From Apostichopus japonicus (lineage: Eukaryota > Echinodermata > Holothuroidea > Aspidochirotida > Stichopodidae), in contig NC_092571.1 in the NCBI RefSeq assembly GCF_037975245.1, forward strand, positions 4,201,001-4,265,000: a stretch of DNA of 64,000 nt. Reading direction: 5' to 3'. This document shows, one piece after another, positions 4,919 to 57,892 of this stretch. Position 1 is the first letter of the stretch. Every line of letters starts with the position of its first letter. The notes beneath the pieces were generated by a model. The model made no database searches. It saw nothing but the letters and a program-made list of their open reading frames with translations, and was not told the origin of the DNA. Made by a program: the position numbers and the translations under genes.

Positions 4919-7155
4919 CTACCGTAAGTGCACGTTAACAGTGTATACATACATCCGTGCTTTATAGCGTTTTACAAAAACGCATAGGTACTTTGGCTGC
5001 GTTGAACAATCAACGCTGTATGTTATAGTTTAAATGTATAGATATAAATACAAAGTACACATTATATACATATATCCGTGCAAAGCGCAAAGATATTGAC
5101 GTTGCGTCATAGCTAAGGTCGTTGCGCTTACTTTTCGTTGAACAGACAACGCTCTGTGTCTAATAGTTTTAATGTATACATATTAATGCACGTAAACAGT
5201 GTATAAACTTACATCCGTGCATTAAAGCGTTATACAAAAGCGCATAGATACTTTGGTTGCGTCATAGATAGGGTAGTTGCGCTTACTTTTTGTTGAACAA
5301 ACAACGCTGTATGTTATAGTTTAAATGTTTAGATATAAATACACGAAAAACAGTGTATACGTACATCCGGGCATTTAAGCGTTATACCAAAGCGCCTAGA
5401 TACTTTGATTGCGTCATAAATAAGGTAGTTGCGCTTACTATTTGTTGAACAAACAACGCTGTATGATATAGTTTTAATGTATAGATAGAAATGCACGGTA
5501 AACAGTGTATACATGCACCCGGACATAAAAGCGTTATACCAAAGCGCATAGATACTTTGGGTGCGTCATAGTTGGGGTAGTTGCGCTTACTTTTCGTTAG
5601 ATAGACAAAGCTGTATGTTATAGTTTAAAGATATAGATATAAATACAAAGTATACACATTGTATACATATATCCGTGCAAAGCGCATATATATTTTGTTT
5701 GCGTCATAGCTAAGGTCGTCGCTCTTACTTTTCGTTGGACAGACAACGCTGTTTGTCTAATAGTTTAAATGTATACATATAAATGCATGATCAACAGTGC
5801 ATACATACATCCGGGCGTTCAAGCGTTATACCAAAGCGCCTATATACTTTGGTTGCGTCATAGCTAAGATCGTCAGGCTTACTTTTCGTAGGACAGACAA
5901 CGCTGTGTTTTAGAGTTTAAATGTATAGATATAAATGCACGGCAAACAGTGTATACATGTATCCGGACATTAAAGCGTTATACCAAAGCGCCTAGATACT
6001 TTGGTTGAGTCATAGTTAGGCCGGGTAGTTGCGCTTACTTTTAATTAGATAGCCAAAGCTGTACGTTATATAAATACACGTTAAAGTGTATACATACATC
6101 CGGGCATTTAGGCGTTATACCAAAGCGCCTAGATACTTTGATTGCGTCATAAATAAGGTAGTTGCGCTTCCTTTTCGTTGGATAGACAAAGCTGTATGTT
6201 ACAGTTTCAATGTATATATATAAAAACAAAGTACACATTGTATACATACATCGGTGCAAAGCGCATATATATTTTGTTTGCGTCATAGCTAAGATCGTCA
6301 GGCTTACTTTTCGTTGGACAGACAACGCTGTGTGTTAGAGTTTATATGTATAGATATAAATGCACGGCAAACAGTGTATACATGTATCCGGACATTAAAG
6401 CGTTATACCAAAGCGCCTAGAAACTTTGGTTGAGTCATAGTTAGGGTAGTTGCGCTTACTTTTAATTAGATAGCCAAAGCTGTACGTTATATAAATACAC
6501 GTTAAAGTGTATACATACATCCGTGCAAAGCGCATAGATATTTTCGTTGCGTCATAGCTAAGGTCGTCGCGCTTACTTTTCGTTGGACAAACAACGCTGA
6601 ATGTTATAGCTTAAATGTATAGATATACTTGCATGTAAGCAGTGTATACATACATCCGTGCACTAAACCGTTATACAAAAATGTATAGATATAAATGCAC
6701 GCAAACAGTGTAAATACATCCGTGCGTTCAAGCGTTATACAAAAGCGCATAGATACTTTGGTTGCATCATAGATAGGGTAGTTGCCCTTACTTTTTGTTG
6801 GACAGACAACACTCTATGTTATAGTTTAAATGTGTAGATATAAATACACGTTAAACAGTGTATACAAACATCCGGGCATTTAAGCGTTATACCAAAGCGC
6901 CTAGATACTTTGATTGCGTCATAAATAAGGTAGTTGCGCTTACTTTTCGTTGGATAGACAAAGCTGCATGTTACAGTTTAAATGTATAGATATAAAAACA
7001 AAGTACACATTGTATACATACATCAGTGCAAAGCGCAAAGATATTGACGTTGCGTCATTGCTAAGGTTGTCGCGCTTACTTTTCGTTGGACAGACAACGC
7101 TGTGTGTTAATGTTTAAATGTATAGATATAAATGCCCGTTAACAGAGTTTACATA
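4919..7155. repeat. tandem array, period about 150 bp, left part
   Basis: About fourteen diverged units. Each contains variants of CATCCGTGCATTAAAGCG, TTATACCAAAGCGC, TAGATACTTTGGTTGCGTCA, TAGTTGCGCTTACTTTTCGT and AACAGTGTATACAT. Spacing between successive AACAGTGTATAC motifs is roughly 150 bp. Some units are shortened. The short open frames here are repeat-derived and not genes. The array is interrupted by the 6.2-kb element and resumes at 13387. Confidence 0.9.
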
Positions 7156-13580: not shown

Positions 13581-13892
13581 GATAATATCAAAACGGTTAT
13601 CAGTTTGATGAAGGAGAGAATATGGTTTTGGTTCTTTCTTTAATGTTTTGATTTTCTATGCAGGAGACTCGGCGACAAGCACATCATTTAAAAAGTGGGA
13701 GTATTGGTGGAGGGGGGGGGAGATTCCAAATTTCTCCCGACTGAGTTTGGTAGGGCGTAGTTGAATGCGCCTCTGGAGAGCGTCCCCCACGCCCCCCCCC
13801 CCAACCTTGGACGCCCATGCTTTTCCGATGCGAATTTGGAATTATGTTTTTGCAGGTACCTTAATGTCATTCCTTTAACGGCTGTGAAGGAA

Positions 13893-14050
13893 CACTTGGG
13901 TAAATACGCCCTTAATGACAGTTATTCAGAGCCAGTAGAATCACTGTGGTCGAGTGGTACGGATTTCGGTTCGTGACACGAAGATCCGGGGTTCGATTCC
14001 TACCTTCGCCTGATGAGTCCCAAAAGGACGAAACCGGTCGTGAAGTGGAA
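13893..14050 (+). mobile_element. tRNA-like SINE carrying a hammerhead ribozyme, copy 1
   Basis: The element shares about 160 bp with 44281-44460, beginning at ACTTGGGTAAATACGCC and running through a pol III-type promoter. The box A-like TGGTCGAGTGGT is at 13947-13958, and a perfect box B, GGTTCGATTCC, is at 13990-14000. A hammerhead motif overlaps box B, and a (TA)n tail follows (14055-14127). Copy 2 has about 23 bp more upstream of GTAGAATCACTG. The pairing of a pol III promoter with a hammerhead recalls the schistosome Sm-alpha SINE-like family, but I cannot say whether the two are related. Confidence 0.8.
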
Positions 14051-14051
14051 T
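13996..14051 (+). ncRNA. type I hammerhead ribozyme
   Basis: All core elements are present. CTGATGA is at 14010-14016. Stem II is GTCC/GGAC (14017-14020 with 14026-14029) with a 5-nt loop. GAA follows at 14030-14032. Stem III is ACC/GGT (14033-14038), with C at 14039 as the expected cleavage base. Stem I pairs 14004-14009 with 14040-14045 (6 bp, one G-U), then after a small internal loop 13996-14000 with 14047-14051 (5 bp). Stem III has no loop: ACCGGT is a palindrome, so a dimeric (double) hammerhead is the likely active form. Cleavage is predicted, not shown. Confidence 0.85.
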
Positions 14052-14053
14052 TT

Positions 14054-14054
<1 letters not shown>

Positions 14055-14127
<73 letters not shown>
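14055..14127. repeat. (TA)n microsatellite, SINE tail
   Basis: Uninterrupted TA directly 3' of the hammerhead SINE. The YIYIYI open frames on both strands are artefacts of it. Confidence 0.95.
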
Positions 14128-14129
<2 letters not shown>

Positions 14130-17100
14130 CATATATAACACTTTCACAAAAATAGACCCTAAATGTATTCTCAAGCTCAAACTTATTAACAATAACTCAA
14201 TCGTTAAGGCTAGACGAAAGTTTTGGGCGAATAGTAAGGATTTTGTTATATATAACTCTCTTAAGTTGTAAAAAATTTCTCCTTAACGTTTTTTTTACTA
14301 GGGACTACGTACTGTACATACGTAAACTGTTATGGATGTACACACGTTATTTACATAAATACATACTGAAAAAAGTGTATTGTACTGTACATACGGTTCA
14401 ATACACTATATACACTAAGATTGTATCCTCGTACTCGACGATTTTTTCCACGGAGACGGAACACGTCTTTCAAAGAGAGGAACAATATTTTAAGCAGGGG
14501 TGGTGAAAATGGGAATATATGGGGTCGTGGTTTAGTTGTGTATGACGGAGGGGTATACTAAGAAGAAAGGTGTATATTAAGCTCAATTACGAAAGGTAAC
14601 AATATAATATAATATATACAATATAAAATAATAATAATAACAAAACTTAAAAAGAGTAAAATTATATAAGGAATACCCGCCTTCCTATGCAGACGCCCTT
14701 TCATATGCCTTACAAAAGGCCCATCTGCAGTCTAGAATCAACCTGTATCGTTTCTCACAATGCATTAGTACTTGCACAAGGTTATTAAATTGTGTGTAAG
14801 ATTGGCACACCCCTTCCTCTTAACCCCCCCCCCCCCACCCACACACCTATTGAGGTGAATCGCACACACAAATTTGGCGGCAATGTGCGGATATTTTGAA
14901 AGGTAGTTATAATTATTCATGTAACAAAGCAAGAAATATGTACCAATATAAACTCACACGTCAAGTGTCACTGGGGCTAGTGACTGAGAAGATTTAATGC
15001 TATAAAAATCGATTTGAAAATAATGGCCTAATGGGAAACTTATGACATGTAGTATGGAAATATAGCATATCTTGAAACAAGTACATATGAAAATTACTAA
15101 CACAAGATAGGGGTTGAAAACGGCAGTTCTGACTGATTGGTCAATAATGAAGCAATGTCACAAATTGAGTAGAAGATTCATATCAACATTAGGTTCAGAA
15201 TGTAATAAACCTATACGAAAAAAAGGAGAACAAATCAAACAACGAAGAACACATCTGTCACTTACAAGAGCAGGGTACAATTTCGCGAGTTCGAATGTAG
15301 GCTATCCTACCAATATGAAGACACAGTACAAGAACTTCAACAACACATTCAAGTATAAGCTTGATAATAAATGTAATTCTTCAAAGTTACACAAAGTTTC
15401 GTCTTCCTTTAATTAATAAGTGGATATAATGCTAAACTATCAATATTAACCAGGTAAAAGCATTTAGCTCAGGTACTACGCAACGTTGAAACCATTTGCG
15501 CGAGATTAACAAATGTTGGGTGTGTTTCTATGTTGATTTGTTAGTATTTTGATAGTAAGATCACCTAGACATTGAGCAATTCTATGGCATGCTCAATCTA
15601 CATGTATACCTGTCTATGAAGGGCTGGCACATCCCTACTACATAGCCACCATCACTGTACTAGATCTGAATAGTTCCCTGGATAACAAAGGCTCGTTTAC
15701 TCACACAAAAGATGGCCCAGGTAACTATCACCATAGTAAAGTACAATGGCCTATCAACTCTTATGTGACAACATCTCTGCTCCTCTTCCAATGGCACACA
15801 AACACTCTACACTGAGAAATAAGAAAGTGCCTATTCAAACAATAATACATATCTAGATTTGTCTTGAGAATATTATGTTCACACGCCCCCTCAATGTCTT
15901 CAAGAAATGAATAAACTGATTCAAGCAATTTAACTTCATGTGTCATGTTGCAACTCTCATTTGTTCTATTAGCACTCATTGCTCATCGTTCATTAACTTC
16001 ATCCTTCCTGTGCACCCTTTCTTCCGCTACTCTCGTTCATTACATTGGTGTGCACATACAGATTAATAAACATTATTATGTAGCTTTTAAACCTTTTAAA
16101 CTGTTCTCTGTATTTCCCAAACTTCTTCTGAGAGAGAAGTCTTCGTTCCTTTCCAGATACTTAACGAATTATCTAGTAGATATAATCTTGTGTGGGAAGC
16201 ATTAGGTCTTCTTTCTTATTGCATGATAATAACCCATTTACATGCTGGCAGCTTTTGTGGTTTGTTTAAGGCATTTATTCAAATATTGCCAAGTATGAAT
16301 CAAATAACATAACAATTTCTATGAGAGTCAGAGTGTTTTCAAGCAGTGATGAAGTTTCATATCGACCTATATTGTCTATGAAGGGACATACAAGAAGCAA
16401 ATTTAACTATGCATGGCATTTAATTTAACTGAACAGTTTTCAACACATCACCTAACACTTACTGTAACACTTACTTGGAATACTCTTTGTTGTCTGGTCA
16501 GTTATCATACTGTGAAATTGTTTCTCCACTAAGTTTTCGTCACTTTTTGTCCACTTGGTATATGTTCACACTAACCCCCCCCCCCCCCCAATAAAAGACA
16601 ATATAAAAAACTTATCTAGCCTGTTTTATCTGTACTAAAATGAATTGGTTGGAAACAATGATTAATTGAGAGAAGAGAATGAACTCTGGAAGCAGTTTGG
16701 CGAAGTAAACCTTGTGAAGAACCAGGTAGAGCTAATGTTGAAAGTGAATTAATATTTTTGTTTGTTTGTAGCAATCCATTGATAAATACACTAACTGGAT
16801 AGGAGAGTAAAAGTAGTGGAATGCTTTAAGCTACAGAGATGCCTAGATCCAAGTTAGTAGGCTAGCCTTTGTTTGACCAAACAGAACAGCGTAAGTGCTT
16901 AAACTTTAACTGTTATGCCAATAACCCTAGTTCTTATATATTACATCAAAAGTTAAGTTAGGCCTAAGTGAGGTAAGACCTCAACTTAAGCTGATGATCT
17001 TACAATGCAACTACGTTTTGGTGTTCAGGACTATTGGTTTACTCTCCCGATTACTTTGCGCTCAATGAAGTAGGCTAGCAACTACAAGAGCTTACTAAAG

Positions 17101-18263: not shown

Positions 18264-19370
18264 ATGGCTTCTTATTCTCTCATTTCACCGTAGAGTAAGG
18301 CATATGCGCGCCTATTGCGCGAAAGAGAAAACCTTTCAGTTCGTCAAGTTGCCAAGTTAACAGGAATTTCGAAGACTTCGGTATCAAGGATTTGCAGTAA
18401 ACGTTTATTGCGGGGCGAGGCTCGACCAAGTACTCATGGAGAGGGACCGGTTCGAAAGAGGGGGCGGCCACCCAAGTTGAGCGTTCGTCAAAAGCGTGCT
18501 ATTTTGAAGGAACTTAGAAAAAACAAGGAGTGAGGGACAGTTTTCTGTGAGAACTCTCAGGACAAAGTGTGAGTTACATACAGTGTCGGAGAGAACAATA
18601 TCTCGATTTCTCAACAAGAGTGGTTATAAGTACTATCAAGCCAGAAAGAAGGGTCTCCTATTTCCCAAGGACCTGCATCAACGTTGGAAATTCGCCAGAG
18701 GAATTAAACGGTCTCGAGGTGAGGCATTCTGGACTAAAGATATATCTTTTTATTTTGATGCCACCGCATTTCATTATAAGAGCCACCCACGACAGCACGC
18801 AAACACTCTAAGTAGGCGTGTTTGGCGTAAGAAAAGTGAGGGGTTATCATTCGGTTGCACGGCCAAAGGGAGTAAGGTCGGGAGTGGCGGAAAAGTTGTA
18901 AGGGTGTATGCCGCCATCTCATATGGAAACGCGTGGTGTTAGCTAAACCATACCGCAAGTTAGCTGGCAAGCGTTTTTCGAAATTTATGAAAAAGGAATT
19001 CCCGGCAGTCTTCCAAAAATGTGAAGCAACCCATAACACTCCACGGATTTTTCTTCAAGATGGCGACCCTTCTCAGAACTCAAAGAAAGCTATCAAAACA
19101 CTAAGTCGCATGGATGCAACCATTTTTAAGATCCCTCCTAGGAGCCCCGACTTAAATCCAATAGAAAATATCTTCAAACTTTTGGGGCATCAACTGAAGT
19201 ACAATGCCATCGAGAACAATATTGAATTTGAGACATTACGAGCTTTCAGAAGTCGAGTTGTTACAACTCTCCTCCAGATGCCGCGTGCTATCATTGACAA
19301 AACAATCGCTTCAATGGGTAAACGAATTGATGAAATCATTCGAAGAAAAGGAGAGAGACTGAAATATTAG
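18264..19370 (+). pseudogene. Tc1/mariner-family transposase, broken
   Basis: About 368 codons, the normal size for a Tc1-like DDE transposase. The N-terminus has a helix-turn-helix (NLSVRQVAKLTGISKTSVSR) and a GRPPK-type AT-hook-like basic patch. The catalytic triad is visible: D in ISFYFDATAF, D in IFLQDGDPSQNS, and E in PRSPDLNPIENIF, with 34 residues between the second D and E (DD34E). Breaks: a TAG stop at 18291, a frameshift near 18531 and another near 18933. It is therefore non-functional. Terminal inverted repeats typical of Tc1 were not found; the flanking 322-bp repeats are direct. Confidence 0.9.
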
Positions 19371-20319: not shown

Positions 20320-21975
20320 TTAGAATAAACTTGGCAAAACATGGTCCACATGGGGGACATCAACCTGTTCGTTGGCTTGGATTTGCGAGCGGAAGGTAAA
20401 TTATCGCCATCGAATCGTCATCATCTCCGTTTCTCTTTCTTCAATTTGGGCCCCCTTTATGTATATCAGTGGATTCTTGCCAGTTGCGAACACTGGTGAT
20501 GAACCACTAAGGACAAAATCTTGGGAGAAGTGTGTTTTTGGATCGGGTAGATGTACCATTTGACCTTCTAATAGAAGCAGGAGATCATGCCACGGCATGA
20601 TCTGCGGACTCCATCTGAAGTCATTTAGGAAAATGACTTCAGCTTTCTTAGCACCAACCCACGCGAAGCTCGTTGAAGCGGGATTGGAAAATACTTTGAA
20701 GATTTGGGCCAGAGGCGCCAGAATAAACGTTTTGCCGCAATTCGCGGGACCAGTTATAAAAAATTATAAAAATTTACCCGGCCCTTCTCGAGGACGTCGA
20801 CAACAGCCCGTTGAAATGTACCGGCGGGAATATCATTCCGACGCAAAATGTCTTCCGCGATTTTGGACCATAGCCCGTTGCAGCTTTCGGGACGAGATTT
20901 CTTTCCTCGCTCCAGCTTACTCTCGGCGTCGTGTAGTTCCCACGCGACCTATCGAAAAAGACCTTTATATAGTGACAAATATAGTGAATTCGAGGAATTA
21001 GGTCGAACCTAATATTCAATAGGCACGCAATAGTTGCGTGCCCTCCCCCTCCCCTTCCCCTCCCCCCTCCCCTCCCCTCCCCTCCCCTTCCTATCCCCAC
21101 CGGTTTCCCTCTCCCACCCCTCCCTCAACTCATTCCTCTCCCACACCTCCCACTCCCTGTCACTACCACACCCCTCCAAACGCTACTCTACCACGATCCT
21201 AACCCACAACTTCATCACGCACGACCCCCCACCACCAGACCATGGCATGGTGAATGATTTATACCGTATATTCAAAATGTTGGGAAAATGTATTTATGAA
21301 TTATTGGAAAATGGATTGGCGTACCTCGATCGCTTTCGCGACACACTTTTGTCCCCGATTCACCACAAATTCAGCCAAGTCGGTTTTCCCCTCTCGTTTC
21401 TGCATTTCGGCCAAAGCCAGCAGTTCTGTCCGGGTCTTTATGTTCCGCTTAACTACCATCTGGGACACATCGAACGCGCTAAGCCGTTTGCGCTTTTTTT
21501 TTAGTGGCGCACGTGCTGATTGTTCCCCTGATGCCTGCAGGACCCTAGAGGTACTGGCCGATGTTGTGGCTGGTGGGCTGGCCCCCAGGTCCGGGTGACC
21601 TGGGGTTTGCAGGACGCCAGCGTCCTCTTTAACGACATACTGCCATGCCGTGTAATAATTAGCATGGGTTGAGGAGAAAAGCACCACATTTCCATGCTGG
21701 TTTTCTAACAGGCTCTTAACTCTTAACCATCGACGTGGCCGATCAAGCTTTACCGCCATGTGATAGTGTTTGCCGCCATCTTGGTGGGTTTCTTGACAAC
21801 ATACCCATTGGATGATATGTGCCCCTACCGACTCGAACGAACCTCGTACCTGTTCTGCGAAATTTTCACGCGAAGCGCATAGAGTTTCATCGGCTGGGCT
21901 ATATGTTATCAAATATACCATCCGAACTTGACGTACTCCTAATGTATCAGCCATGATGTTGGATAATACCTGCAA
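20320..21975 (-). pseudogene. Rep-like replication initiator (HUH nuclease + SF3 helicase), broken
   Basis: The 5' part (21975-21323) encodes a rolling-circle HUH endonuclease: motif I-like MVYLITYSP, HUH motif KHYHMAV, and catalytic YVVKED (Y-x-x-K). The 3' part (20950-20320) encodes a superfamily 3 helicase: Walker A GPANCGKT, Walker B VIFLND, and a motif C-like FATGKNP. This order is that of Rep from CRESS-DNA viruses and related elements. The likely start is the internal Met before ADTLG, but this is unproven. Breaks: a 376-bp insertion (20951-21326), a one-base frameshift in a T-run just before Walker A (about 20755-20770), and a TAA stop at about 20400. It is a dead, integrated copy; whether viral or transposon-borne cannot be told from this window. 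Confidence 0.85.
20951..21326. mobile_element. 376-bp insertion splitting Rep, with 4-bp duplication
   Basis: ACCT at 20947-20950 is repeated at 21323-21326, and the Rep frame is continuous if one ACCT and the segment between are removed. That is the pattern of an insertion with a 4-bp target duplication. The insert contains a ~45-bp piece of the 322-bp repeat (20990-21035) directly followed by the second C/T-rich block (21038-21190). This is the same order as at 19804-20275, so it looks like a shortened copy of the Rep element's own flank. No TIRs are seen. Confidence 0.75.
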
Positions 21976-22500
21976 TACTGAAATCTCCCGGTTCTATTTA
22001 ATGAGTTCTATATTAGCCTATATCTATACATATATATGTGTGTATATAAGACTTGCTGATATCATGTGGTGATCTGTATATGTCTGGTTGGATTTACACA
22101 TGACGTGTTAATCTGTCTAATAGCTAACAATTGGCCCTGAAACACATTTACCAAATTTGGGTAATTACTGACGTGTTATACTGTCAGTGGCTGGATTATA
22201 GGTTTGAAGGTGTAAGATCTTCCTGTTGTGATGAAACGGCTGATGATGCAAGCTTATAAAAGCATTCTATGAACCCTATATAACAATGTAAATGTCCAAT
22301 TCATTGCTATGATATATATATTTAAAACCATGTGTACTATTCCTACAATGTCTAATGCCCAGTAGTAAATCCTTATGCTACTATACTTATATACTACTTT
22401 TTTTTTTTTTAAAACGTTATTTAAAAAGGCTTCATGTTGAACTCACACTGTCTACAAGATGATTCAAACAAGATGATTGCTTAAGAAAATGCATAACGCC
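21976..22500. other. 5' flank of Rep, nothing recognised
   Basis: AT-rich with short TA and poly-T runs. No nonanucleotide-bearing stem-loop of the CRESS type was found. Confidence 0.5.
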
Positions 22501-23686
<1,186 letters not shown>

Positions 23687-42844: not shown

Positions 42845-44280
42845 TAGAACGTTTTACATACAACACTGCATTATATTCTACTTTGGTTACATTACCTCAG
42901 AAAATACTTTCACTTAACGTGCAAATGTCACCACTGCTCACCATGCATCTGTGTGTGGTGTCCTAAGAAGCTGAAACGGTACATCTCGTCCATTACTTCT
43001 TCGACGCGAAAACGAAACAACCGATATTTGTCAAGTTATCGACCTGGTTACACAATGTTCCAACCACAACACACAATGCTTCGGTGTATATCGTGAAAAT
43101 ATGCCGTCTTTGCACACCAGAAGCAAAACTGTTTACGTTGATTTTCCATTCAACATCGCAGAGGCAAACGGCAATGACAAATATATGGTGTGTGCTTAAC
43201 ACTATAGTGTATCATTCGCTTTGCTTTACGCGTTATGGCGTTGTATCAACAAAGTGCTTCAGTTATGATAAAATTGCTCCGTGTCATAAACATGTACGAA
43301 TGCAAACATCAAAACAGAAGAAAATTTATGATTCTGCGTTAAAGGAGAATGTACAAATTTTGATATGTCAATATCAACCGGTTTCGGAAAACAAATTTTT
43401 ATGTTAACTCCCTATACGGAAAACGTTGCATTTGCTATTCCGTACTATCAGGCGGGCGTTTAAGTACGTGATGCAATGTGTGATTTCAATTAAATTTAAT
43501 TAACATTGTATGTGATTATTGCACAAAATGAATTGTCTTAATATCATAAAACTTAAAACGGCTACCCCCCCCCTCCCCCAAAACAAAAACCTGCTTATGA
43601 ACATGGCACTTAACACTACCTTTAATTGTTGCAACGCTACATGTATATTTCTAGGACCAGTTGTGCTGAGTTCAACACGGGAATTTGGATAGTTCACATA
43701 ATTTACCGTAAAATATAACAAGAGTGGAGGTGCAATATCTATGACACGATTGTCGGATGCAATGATTAGACCGAGATGAATTTCTCTTTCGTTTATTCAA
43801 GAAGTTAGGACATACACACACGATCAACCATATTGTTGGCCTTACTCTTTCTCGAGAGTTGTTGGGACGAACAAGTGTTAGTATGTAAAAGTCCTTTAAA
43901 ATTCCCAAACTTTTCATTATCAAGCAATCGAAACAAGTGATAATCTGCATTTCTTCCTATGATTAGGTGTTACCTCTGAGAGAATGAGTCAGATCATCAT
44001 CAGTGGGTTTACAAAATTGGTTGCACTTTAGGACGTAGGAATGCTCCGTATAGAATAAGAGCAGTAGCGTAACCAGGGGGCGGGATCCCCCATTCAAATA
44101 TCTTGCCCCAACCCGCTCCCCTCCCCTCTCACAATGACATTGGTAGACGAAAAATAATAACTTAATTAACTAAATTATATAGGGCGTTTTACCCAAGTGT
44201 TATTATTGTACAGAGTGCACCCCTGGTGCTTTGAATCTGACAATTTACACAGAACAACCACTCTTTATAGGCAATCATAA
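42845..44280. other. spacer, nothing certain
   Basis: Several short frames without motifs. A CAGTAGCGTAACCAGGGGGC sequence at 44062 looks like the end of another hAT-type element, but its partner was not found. Confidence 0.4.
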
Positions 44281-44460
44281 CATTTGGGTAATACGCCCTC
44301 AATGACAGTTATTCAAAGCCAATTTATACGCATTCACACACCAGTAGAATCACTGAGGTCGAGTGGTACGGACTTCGGTTCGTGACACAAGATCCGGGGT
44401 TCGATTCCTACTTTCGCCCGATGAGTCCCAAGAGGACGAAACCGGACGTAAAGTGAAATT
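44281..44460 (+). mobile_element. tRNA-like SINE with hammerhead, copy 2 (decayed)
   Basis: Homologous to 13893-14050, with about 23 extra bp before GTAGAATCACTG. Box A-like AGGTCGAGTGGT is at 44356-44367, and perfect box B is at 44398-44408. The hammerhead region (44404-44459) has CCGATGA in place of CTGATGA, ACCGGA in place of ACCGGT before the cleavage base, and a weakened stem I, so self-cleavage is unlikely. A mixed TA/CA/TG microsatellite follows (about 44490-44678). Confidence 0.8.
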
Positions 44461-44489
44461 TTTCTGGTGTGTTGTTCTTTATTCACTTA

Positions 44490-44505
44490 CTATATATATA
44501 TATAC

Positions 44506-49013: not shown

Positions 49014-50190
49014 AGTCAACCACCAGCTGTTATTGGACATTCTCGAGAAGTGCTTTGGAGTTCACGGGTTAGCTAGAAAATGGGTATCGTCGTATTTATC
49101 TGAGAGACAATTCGCTGTTTGTATCAACAAATCACTTTCTACGCCGATGTAGGTCAATTTCTCCGTACTACAGGGTAGTATAAATAGACCAGTATATTTC
49201 ACCTGCAATACTACCACAATGAACACGTGTATCAGTGATGACCAATTCCTCATTGGCTACGCCGATGACCACAGTATCTACTCCAGTTTTAAACCCGGAG
49301 ATGTTTCTTCGGAATTGGAGTCAATCAGGGGTCTTTCATCAACTCTAGAAAATGTGAAACTCTGGATGCAATTTAACCGTCTTAAGATGAATGATGAAAA
49401 ATCGGAGTTTATCGTTTTCGGAAGCAATCGCCAACTACCAAAGTGCAATACAGACGTTTTATCCATTGGGGACACTCCCGTCCGTCATACTGATAGTGTG
49501 AAGCTACTAGGTGTTTACATGGATGAAACCCTCAATCTCAAACATCATATTTCCATGAAAGCTCGTGCATCAGCCCTCGCCATGTTTAATCTGAAGAAGA
49601 TCCGGGAATATTTGGACAAGTCGACATGTCTCAAAATTGCAAATGCCATGATTTTCTCCCATATGGATTATTGCAATGGTCTTTTTTATCAACCTCCCGG
49701 CCTCCACACTTCATCCTCTACAAAGGATCCAAAATTACACGGCTAAAATTATTCTCGGCAGATCAAAATATGACAGTGCCTCCGCAGTGAAGGAGCTGCA
49801 TATCCTCCCCGTCAATGTCCGTGTCGAGTACAAGATCCTCCTCCTCGTTTATAAGTGTATACATAATTCAGCACCAGCTTATCTGTCGGAGTTGCTGGAA
49901 ATTAAGACACCTGTTCGTTCAACACGCTCGTCAAAGGGCATCCTTCTCAAGGTTCCTTTCACACGCCGCAAATGTTTCGCAGGCCGCTCTTTCAGCGTCG
50001 CTGGCCCCAGACTTTGGAACGCTCTCCCCGTCGACACAAGAAATTCGAAGACCAGAACTTTTAAAGTTGCTTTGAACACTCACTTATTTAAGAAATCGTT
50101 TTTATAATTGTATTGTTGTTCAGCGCCATTGAGTGTTTTAACAGTAATGTGCGCTTTACCAAGAGTTACCACCTTAACATTAACCTTAAC
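49014..50190 (+). mobile_element. 5'-truncated LINE (CR1/L2/Jockey-like RT)
   Basis: The insert begins inside the RT domain (TVNHQLLLDILEKCFGVHGL), continues through GYADDHSIYSSF (the YADD catalytic site), a KLLGVYMDETLN segment and the thumb/C-terminal region (RIQNYTAKIILG, YKILLLVYKCIH, GPRLWNALPVDTR). It ends in TTAAC-type short repeats. A TAG stop lies at 49150 and a frameshift near 49690. The ends abut a sequence that is intact at 45625-45726. A possible short duplication (CAC/ACAC) flanks it. The clade assignment is from remembered motifs only. Confidence 0.85.
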
Positions 50191-55000: not shown

Positions 55001-57892
55001 GTGCCAAGCACCAGGAATAGAACAAAAGTGAGTAGAAATTTAATCCAGACCATATCATCCATTGTCACTAGTGACCGCCACAAAGCAACCTCCGTATCTA
55101 CGCAGACTGGTGTAAATAATAACAATCTGATCCGCCTGATCTCTGGTCGGGGCAAACTTGCATATATCGCCAGCGAATCCAGCCAGCCGATTACCGAACT
55201 CGATTCCACAACTGGTGTAAGGTGTTTATGATGTCTCCACGTGCATCCGTCCGCGATACCACAAAGTCATACCAACTGCAAAAAACAGTTTAAGACATGA
55301 TAACTTGTAAGAGATTAGGCGTGTATCTGGGTAATATGTCATTCTCATCAAACGACCTCTCCAAGTATGTTGCTTGAATCCCCAGGTCAGTTAAGAACAA
55401 AAAGCCAGTCTCTTGGGGAATACATTAGGACAAATTACTATGATTTGGTTGCACTTACAGAAAACTGGCTCGGTTCAATAGTCGACAAGAAATGCATCAG
55501 TAAATTCGTGCCCACCAGCTACTCAATAAAACATGTCACTTGTACTAGAGGGAGACGCGATGGTGGTTTGGCGCTGCTCTATAAATCAGCACTAGATCTC
55601 CGTCTGCTGAGCTCCAGTACAGGTGTGCATTATAAAAACTTCGAACATGTGGAATGTGAACTAAGCATCGAAAACCAAAGGGTTCGACTGGCTGTGGTGT
55701 ACCGACCTCCACCATCTCAACAACATGGTCTGACAACGGCTGCGTTACTAGACGAATGGTCTACATTCCTCACAGACTACGCCATTGACAGGAAAGAAGT
55801 CCTCATCGTTGGTGATTTCAACTTTCACCTAGATGTGTAGGTACTGACAGACACGCCCAATGTTTTCTGGATACACTGAAAGCATGCGGCTTTCAACAGC
55901 ATGTTCGCAAACCCACTCATATCAATGGCCATACACTGGACCTTGTCATCAGCAGGGACACGAGTGATGTTGTATCGGATGTGATAGTTACAGACTCTGT
56001 ACTCTGTGATCACCTTGGGAAAGCATCACGTGACCATTTTGCTGTTAGCTTCACCACTAACCGGCCTAAGCCTGTCCCTATTCGAAAACTGGTTTCTTAT
56101 CGAAAGTTCAGCAAAATCGACATGGAGGCTTTCAGACGGGATATTACAAATTCACCACTGCTAGGTAGTACCTCTGGCTCCATGGGGACACACTTGTCAA
56201 CGCATACATTGATGGACTATCCTCAATTCGTGACAAACACACGCCGATCTGCGCCAAAATCATAACGCTAGGGCCGATTTGTCCATGGTATTGCGACGTA
56301 CTGCACGAAGTCAAACACACACGGCGCAAATTGGAACGAAAATGATGGGAAAATCGTTTGACAGTTGACCACCAGATTCATCGGGATTACTGTGTAAAAA
56401 TGAATAAATTACTCACGCATGGCAAGGTGACTTATTTCTCAGAGAAGATGATGGCATGCGGACGTGACCAAAAAGGAATTTTAAATGTGGATAAGCATCT
56501 GTTAAGCCACAACAAAGAATCATGCATTCCGCAAAACTACTCCTCCAATGAACTCCCCTGTGTATTCAGCAGGTTCTTCACCGACAAGATCGATACAATC
56601 CGCGATAATTTTGAGAGCGACAGGCAAACGAGAACCAACCAGAGCGTTAATAGTGCAACAGGGTTAGTACCTCTTGATCAGCTTAAGCCAGCGAGTGAAG
56701 CGAGTGATCACCAAGTCACCTTAAAAGTCATGTAGACTCGACCCTTTACCAACCTGGTTGTTAAAGTCGTGCGTGGATCAGCTATTTCCTCTGATAACCG
56801 TCATTGTTAACGCCTCCCTCTCAGGCAGCTGCGTTCCTAATAATTTCTAATGTGCGCAGATCACGCCTCTTTTGAAAGAAATCAGGACTTGACCAGAACA
56901 ACCTCAACAACTACAGGCCAACATCCAACCTTCCATATTTCTCTATATTAACGAAAAAAAGTAGTAGATGCCCGTTTGGAACACCATCTTATGACCAACA
57001 ACCTAACGAGACGATGCAGTCTGCATATCGTATATCACATTCAACAGAGACTACACTACTTAAAGTAAAGAGCGACCTCCTATCATTCCTGGACAAAGGA
57101 TATGTAGCCGCGTTAATTATGCTCGATTTATCGGCAGCCTTTGACACTCTCGATCAAAAAACCATGCTGCAACGTTTCGAGAACACATTTGGTGTTACTG
57201 GAGATGCCTTGTCCTGATGTCATCATACCTCTGCGATCGCAAACAAGTTGTGACCACCGGTGACCATCATTCTGAATCTGTCATCTTGAAGCAAGGCGTG
57301 CCTCAAGGTTCAGTTTTAAGTCATAAGATGTACAAAATGTATAGGGCACCGTTGTGCGAACTTATTCGACGTCATCGATTAAACTACCACTTTTATGCTG
57401 ACGACACATACTTGTATGTGTCGTTTAAACCTAACGATGAGGATGCACAGAAGGAAACAATGAATCCAGTATCCGAATGCTTAGCTGATTTCGAGAATTG
57501 GATGCACAATATTAAGCTAAAGCTGAACCCTGCCAAAACGGAAGTGATGTATTTTCCACTAAGCGCAACAAAAAATGTGTCAATAACATTTCATTAAATA
57601 TCGGCGATTCTGTTATCACACCAACGCCAACGGTAAGAAATCTTGTTGTAATGTTTGACTCTCATCTGAACATGTCCCAACAAGTTAATAGTGTTTGTAG
57701 GTCTGGATAAGCGAGTCTTCAAAACATCGGCCACATGAGGCGTTTTTAAACTGACGATGAAACCAAACCACTCGTGAATGGCCTAGTAACCTCGCGTCTT
57801 GATTACTGCAACTCGATGCTAACTGTGTACACGCCTAACAGAACATTGAGATCGGCTAATTCCCTTACACTAGTGGTCCCCAGAGTAAAGAC
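55001..57892 (+). mobile_element. LINE with endonuclease and RT, decayed (CR1/L2-like)
   Basis: The APE endonuclease runs from about 55367: TENWLGSIVDKK, GGLALLYKS, VYRPPP, VGDFNFHLDV, then after a frameshift HVRKPTHINGHTLDLVIS and SVLCDH...SRDHFAVSF. The RT follows from about 56880: MQSAYRISHSTETTLLKV, ALIMLDLSAAFDTLDQ, KQGVPQGSVLS, HFYADDTYLYVSF (YADD), and KLKLNPAKTEVM. At least five frameshifts or stops separate the islands. It ends in a TA microsatellite before the C-terminal region is complete. It lies in what may be an intron of the SLC16-like gene, same strand. Confidence 0.85.

Follow-up and report, generated by a model that had tools for sequence, protein, structure and literature searches.

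A dispersed 339-nt hammerhead repeat of Apostichopus japonicus with pol III-like boxes and Penelope-like copy ends

In a 64,000-nt stretch of the Apostichopus japonicus genome (contig NC_092571.1, positions 4201001-4265000; the whole stretch is called the window, and positions are counted from its first letter), we identified a copy of a 339-nt repeat on the forward strand at 13891..14054. It carries, all on the forward strand, a box A-like TGGTCGAGTGGT (13947..13958) and a box B-like GGTTCGATTCC (13990..14000), which form a consensus pair and are followed by a hammerhead ribozyme. The type I core and inner stem I (14004..14045) were recognised by the Rfam model RF00163 with 38.8 bits (E 2.8e-6) against a gathering score of 34, the sole gathering-level Rfam match in the 64 kb. 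Inner stem I pairs 14004-14009 with 14040-14045 and encloses CTGATGA (14010-14016), stem II (GTCC 14017-14020 with GGAC 14026-14029), GAA (14030-14032) and the loopless stem III palindrome ACCGGT (14033..14038), all legible in the sequence. The predicted self-cleavage site (14039..14040) lies between C14039, where GTC ends, and G14040, a position that we take from the hammerhead rule GUC^. Unit positions (U) are numbered on a circular 339-nt working reference in which U1 is the base directly 3′ of this site; the window copy has 85% identity to the reference and runs from U170 through U339 to U15, with an internal deletion of ∼22 nt between its 5′ part and its tRNA-like part.

Outer stem I joins the two kinds of signal. 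In the RNA fold of the window copy its 5′ strand (13995..14000) pairs with 14047-14052, and the last five bases of box B (ATTCC, 13996-14000) are complementary to GGAAT (14047-14051), so that they double as the outer part of the ribozyme stem. Between outer and inner stem I, an internal loop TAC (14001..14003) faces T14046; this is the position where canonical type I hammerheads contact loop II, and a tertiary contact between loops I and II may form here as well. A second model, RF02275 (HH9), aligned through the loop and over most of box B and outer stem I (13992-14061), scoring 41.7 bits, which is below its gathering score of 52. Just 3′ of stem I is a T4 run (14051..14054) resembling a pol III terminator, which in the family reads T5 (U12-16), and a (TA)n microsatellite (14057..14137), the usual neighbour of these insertions, adjoins the 3′ end of the copy.

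An earlier note, made from the letters alone, had placed both boxes, the core, the palindrome and the cleavage site exactly here and had recognised the sharing of box B with stem I; direct reading of the sequence agrees throughout. Chance was considered as the source of the motifs and ruled out by the Rfam score and by two controls. Exact box B occurs twice in the window against 0.07 expected from shuffles, the second match falling in the other family copy of the window, and box A followed within 20-60 nt by box B occurs a single time over both strands of the window, at 13947, and in 0 of 60 Markov-1 sequences of 64 kb. Elsewhere, the box B-hammerhead layout was found in no stretch of viral contigs (stricter pattern), while genome contigs gave 19 pattern matches, none with CGAAA downstream and two passing a looser GAAA test.

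The second family copy (44181-44497) consists of an inverted 5′ piece (U97-U190) on the reverse strand at 44181..44274 and a main piece on the forward strand at 44272..44497, which runs from U163 through U339 to U50 and then into (TA)n. Its hammerhead core is broken (CTGATGA to CCGATGA, GTC to GAC). The window also holds a satellite-like tandem array at 5000-7024 (periods include 152, 292 and 444), a Tc1/Tc3-like transposase remnant at 18508-19370 (PF01498 on 18508-18942, a second frame to 19370 by eye) and a TCTA microsatellite at 22530-23686 (289 units, 100% match), three frames of which are open as a YLSI repeat. LINE-like reverse transcriptase (RT) and endonuclease pieces lie at 49153-49746, 55319-55840 and 57145-57597, the RT piece at 49153-49746 scoring just below the Pfam cut-off. 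Two Rep-like reading frames on the reverse strand (20401-20763, 21301-21993) include a P-loop-like stretch seen by eye, where Pfam gave no match; a piece of them matches Pfam REP_ORF2-G2P with 26.1 bits, just below the cut-off of 27.8, and they are perhaps a decayed rolling-circle replicon insertion.

The loopless stem III bears on how the ribozyme could fold. Within a monomer, ACCGGT can form a single A-U pair with CCGG as its cap; in a dimer it forms six pairs. For the 58-nt monomer, RNAfold gave a minimum of -17.4 kcal/mol with stem III misfolded, whereas RNAcofold of two 58-nt copies returned an exact double hammerhead joined by ACCGGU at -38.9 kcal/mol. The window copy (67 nt) folded alike, with -18.0 kcal/mol for the monomer and -40.1 kcal/mol for the dimer. 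By minimum-energy prediction, a hammerhead is obtained for the dimer only, in keeping with the suggestion, made in the earlier note, of a dimeric ribozyme working through the palindrome.

To place the window copy in its genome, RF00163 was run at E <= 1e-3 over the 671.6-Mb assembly (35 contigs). Since 74 of 66307 candidates were scored, the match count is a lower bound: the genome contains at least 59 matches, 50 of those listed being above the cut-off, and all 59 matches listed (L001-L059) are the same 339-nt repeat. A repeated family with a type I hammerhead, as had been foreseen, is thus present, and the window copy is a truncated member of it. The element had been taken to be ∼160 nt long; that size belongs to a fragment, and the repeating unit is ∼339 nt. 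The copies lie on many contigs with differing flanks and most are single and truncated; none was present in six hand-picked 5-kb stretches at round coordinates (30 kb), against two in the 64-kb window. The 61 mapped copies are not a random sample, since 59 were chosen by hammerhead score, and we therefore also counted a distinct set (n = 53) without the near-identical duplicates L007, L017, L018, L019, L034, L036, L044 and L055. Nine of the 53 exceed 339 bp and run head to tail across the cleavage site, the longest reaching 532 bp, although two barely exceed the unit (L043, 340 bp; L053, 351 bp). These agree with the multimers anticipated earlier; no long head-to-tail array was seen among the 53. 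In the multi-unit copies the tail region is followed at once by another 339-nt unit, with no intervening ORF, so it is apparently the unit as such that is copied. The unit is non-coding: a protein frame through the ATG of the core was considered and rejected, as the reading frame is lost among copies.

Conservation was assessed for the ribozyme and the boxes. CTGATGA, GAA and NUH were kept in 38 of 44 distinct primary copies (the window copy and L001-L050, seven duplicates dropped), all but the window copy having been chosen by hammerhead score; copies outside that selection include broken cores, such as the second window copy. In 45 rows (six duplicates dropped), pairing was retained in 225 of 244 cells of outer stem I, the box B helix, and in 260 of 270 cells of inner stem I. 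The loop TAC/T within stem I was kept, as in the canonical type I form to which the RF00163 score assigns the family. Covariation in the box B-stem I helix was not found in the 45 rows, where pairing is kept through conservation; the sole two-sided change in a stem I pair, C-G to T-A, affects the inner stem of one copy. Compensatory change being almost absent, stem I pairing is conserved but not proven by covariation. Among 34 copies covering both boxes, the consensus was kept in 28 for box A, 23 for box B and 19 for both. The boxes showed no extra conservation, as their windows rank 82 (box A) and 72 (box B) of 339 in 73 aligned segments.

The ends of the copies are distinctive. In the 61 mapped copies, 31 3′ ends fell at U48-52, 15 at U74-87 and 15 elsewhere; in the distinct set the numbers were 29/53, 12/53 and 12/53, with the window copy among the last. 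The two classes are 24-37 nt apart and both lie downstream of the cleavage site, at which none of the 61 mapped copies ends (one ends 6 nt past it). Ends near U50 are exact to ∼7 nt only, the unit's own TATATAT merging with (TA)n. Internal (TA)n expansion was also considered as a cause of the U50 ends and rejected, because no copy was seen in the BLAST maps to resume at U51 past (TA)n. Directly beside the 3′ end, 39 of 53 distinct copies, and 36 of the 41 within the two classes, have a run of (TA)6 or longer (U48-52, 26/29; U74-87, 10/12; elsewhere, 3/12), compared with 1.4% of random 68-nt window stretches. On the 5′ side such runs were present in 18/53, a rougher count because inverted copies were scanned over longer stretches. 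Head-to-head inversion of a 5′ piece was found in 17 of 61 mapped and 16 of 53 distinct copies. Among the 37 distinct copies that lack an inversion, 5′ starts range from U27 to U302. Six of these copies, including the window copy (from 13891), begin at U168-176, where reverse transcription may tend to stop or where the true 5′ start may lie.

These ends, together with the distribution of copies, bear on another reading, a transcribed family of satellites or segmental duplicates that carries the hammerhead and boxes as functionless passengers. Several sets of copies do resemble segmental duplicates (L016-L019; L006, L007 and L036; L032/L034; L043/L044; L054/L055), and the unremarkable conservation of the boxes and the broken core of the second window copy, which lies outside the score selection, would fit. 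However, the copies are scattered over many contigs, their flanks differ, their 3′ ends are defined and adjoin (TA)n, and most primary copies keep the core (though these were picked by hammerhead score), all of which makes this very unlikely. We regard the family as almost certainly a mobile, non-autonomous hammerhead retroelement.

We then considered the promoter. The earlier note had described the boxes as a tRNA-like promoter, and this holds for the presence of both boxes and for their tRNA-like spacing but not for a tRNA fold. ARAGORN found no tRNA in the element in the window and 30 of 59 fetched loci, nor did the Rfam tRNA model in the window and 10 loci, and the few tRNA calls made by either in the loci fall outside the element. 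A tRNA gene or intact tRNA-like fold in the element was accordingly rejected. Use of pol III is plausible from the two boxes and their spacing and, weakly, from six starts near U235; whether the boxes act as a functional promoter we rate as possible, at somewhat less than an even chance. A pol III transcript from them would be an RNA of ∼120 nt ending in the hammerhead, which might regulate or feed the cycle, or might be extended by read-through. The lack of a recognised tRNA, the retention of both consensuses in only 19 of 34 copies and the unexceptional conservation ranks of the box windows speak against pol III use, as does the T5 run. This run directly follows the ribozyme and separates the boxes from the 3′ ends of the copies, so pol III transcription would probably terminate short of the positions where copies end.

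The same evidence weighs on the proposal, made in the earlier note, that the element is a SINE. A tRNA-derived SINE of the Sm-alpha type, depending on pol III for transcription and on a LINE for mobility, with the hammerhead as an accessory that trims or multimerises the RNA, would account for the boxes at tRNA-like spacing and for short, dispersed, 5′ truncated copies with no kept reading frame; LINE pieces are present in the window. As the earlier note pointed out, schistosomes provide a precedent for a hammerhead in a SINE-like repeat, Sm-alpha being described as combining a tRNA-Gln-like part with a hammerhead (PMC2770079, PMC4918200). Such a SINE would be expected to start ∼12 nt before box A, and 6 of the 37 non-inverted distinct copies do begin at U226-240, but only those six. 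No tRNA is recognised by either method, T5 precedes the 3′ ends of the copies, and two 3′ ends, inversions in 16/53 and lengths beyond 339 bp in 9/53 are not ordinary features of a SINE. A SINE in the usual sense is therefore improbable, and the insertion marks are instead of Penelope type. A 339-nt retrozyme-like unit is a more fitting description of the family than a classical SINE.

Traits published for Penelope-like elements include 5′ truncation, partial tandems, inverted pseudo-LTRs (pLTRs), a 31-bp tail and AT-rich targets (PMC3846280, PMC8969392). Rotifer Penelope elements have an optional tail of 31 bp, 5′ inverted pLTRs, partial tandem copies and a reported preference for simple AT-rich targets, and their pLTR sequences were enough to move unrelated DNA in trans (PMC3846280). 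For Poseidon, an Anolis element, RT is described as beginning internally at two sites next to each other; genomic copies may carry the 30-40 bp lying between these sites, downstream of the hammerhead, as an optional tail, and cleavage prefers AT-rich DNA (PMC11167929). The sea cucumber family has corresponding traits: two 3′ ends whose spacing matches an optional tail of 30-40 nt, inverted 5′ pieces (16/53), partial tandems (9/53) and AT-rich simple targets (39/53), which together point to Penelope-like elements. The 339-nt unit has no RT/GIY-YIG ORF, and in 63 sequences (221,294 bases) a GIY-YIG-like Penelope motif gave two chance-looking matches only. We think it probable that Penelope-type machinery copies the family, and the copy ends give a hint as to the enzyme that copies such ribozyme repeats.

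A related reading makes the copies stray pLTRs of an autonomous Penelope-like element and denies them the status of an independent family. The insertion marks fit it too, in both systems RT begins downstream of the cleavage site, and the distance from the ATG of the core to the cleavage site is 27 nt here and 26 bp in the Anolis element (PMC11167929). Against this, the copies longer than one unit (9/53, two of them barely) pass from the tail into the next unit with no ORF, and the frame from the core ATG is lost among copies. The internal loop of stem I is moreover that of a canonical type I hammerhead, as opposed to the minimal form described for Penelope-like elements (PMC7761336). We judge stray pLTRs to be about as improbable as a SINE.

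The reading that we favour, with a probability of roughly 0.6, is that the window element is a truncated copy of a non-autonomous, non-coding retroelement with a replicating unit of ∼339 nt, moved by Penelope-type copying. The unit contains boxes A and B, the type I hammerhead, a short region with the two 3′ ends and ∼140 nt more that close it head to tail. Its RNA would be made either by pol III acting on the unit's own boxes or by read-through, and multimeric RNA would form double hammerheads through ACCGGU and be cut to monomers, some of which could be ligated into circles. Multimeric, uncut or religated RNA would then be copied by the RT of a Penelope-like element, whose enzyme would cut AT-rich (TA)n DNA. 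Reverse transcription would start inside the RNA, ∼50 or 74-87 nt downstream of the cleavage site, and yield truncated, sometimes multi-unit and sometimes head-to-head inverted copies. A circular template has slightly less than an even chance, as the multi-unit copies fit linear multimers equally well. Insertion of Poseidon in vitro did not need hammerhead cleavage (PMC11167929), which counts against assuming a role for the ribozyme here.

The family touches on two questions about animal retrozymes, namely what transcribes them and which RT copies them, since it offers both a candidate internal promoter and an insertion footprint that points to Penelope-like elements, so that a single organism would serve for testing either idea. 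Where box B and the ribozyme stem overlap, one sequence is possibly under two constraints, a compact case of its kind, although no extra constraint was seen. That it is a Penelope-mobilised, pol III-driven retrozyme, with dual use of box B and stem I and with ends that identify a Penelope-like RT for animal retrozymes, is an attractive but doubtful extension of the favoured reading.

Animal retrozymes are described as type I hammerhead repeats of 170-400 nt, found as linear and circular RNA (PMC7229834). The family resembles these metazoan non-LTR retrozymes in its type I hammerhead, its non-coding unit within that size range, the lack of LTRs and, less clearly, the head-to-tail arrangement of some copies (PMC7229834). 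It differs in that the copies are mostly single and truncated, that box A and box B are present, and that a partner is indicated by the two classes of 3′ end next to (TA)n. According to a 2020 review, retrozymes seem to have no promoters, and those of metazoans carry no motif by which a partner could be recognised (PMC7761336); for a plant retrozyme, a promoter has since been reported (PMC9695139, PMC12029980). Penelope-like elements have been proposed, from shared traits, as a strong candidate partner of animal retrozymes (PMC7229834). The resemblance to Penelope-like elements with hammerheads extends to an optional tail between RT starts, inverted 5′ copies, partial tandems, AT-rich targets and a hammerhead said to be dimeric (PMC11167929, PMC3846280). 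In contrast to those elements, the sea cucumber family has no ORF, a unit of 339 nt, a stem I loop of canonical type and pol III-like boxes.

Newt and axolotl hammerhead satellites share a unit of ∼330-350 nt and dimeric activity, and one of these families has a near-loopless palindromic stem III (PMC7229834). They are unlike the present family in being tandem repeats, with ∼60,000 hammerhead motifs per family in axolotl, and the account drawn on here mentions no internal pol III boxes in them (PMC7229834). The loopless stem III and predicted dimer behaviour of our family resemble one of the two axolotl hammerheads, which has a single pair and a palindromic tetraloop and is a poor ribozyme as a monomer but cleaves better in dimeric form (PMC7229834). 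Schistosome Sm-alpha likewise unites tRNA-type sequence and a type I hammerhead in one short dispersed repeat, but its tRNA-Gln-like part is recognised by tRNA finders, whereas none is recognised here, and the Penelope-type ends have no counterpart in the descriptions of Sm-alpha consulted (PMC2770079). A SINE with a hammerhead is thus already known. The literature searched, which does not cover key older work and so leaves absence unproven, appeared to contain neither a metazoan retrozyme with pol III boxes nor a SINE moved by a Penelope-like element. Compared with these systems, what seems new is the sharing of sequence between box B and stem I, together with Penelope-type ends on a retrozyme-sized unit.
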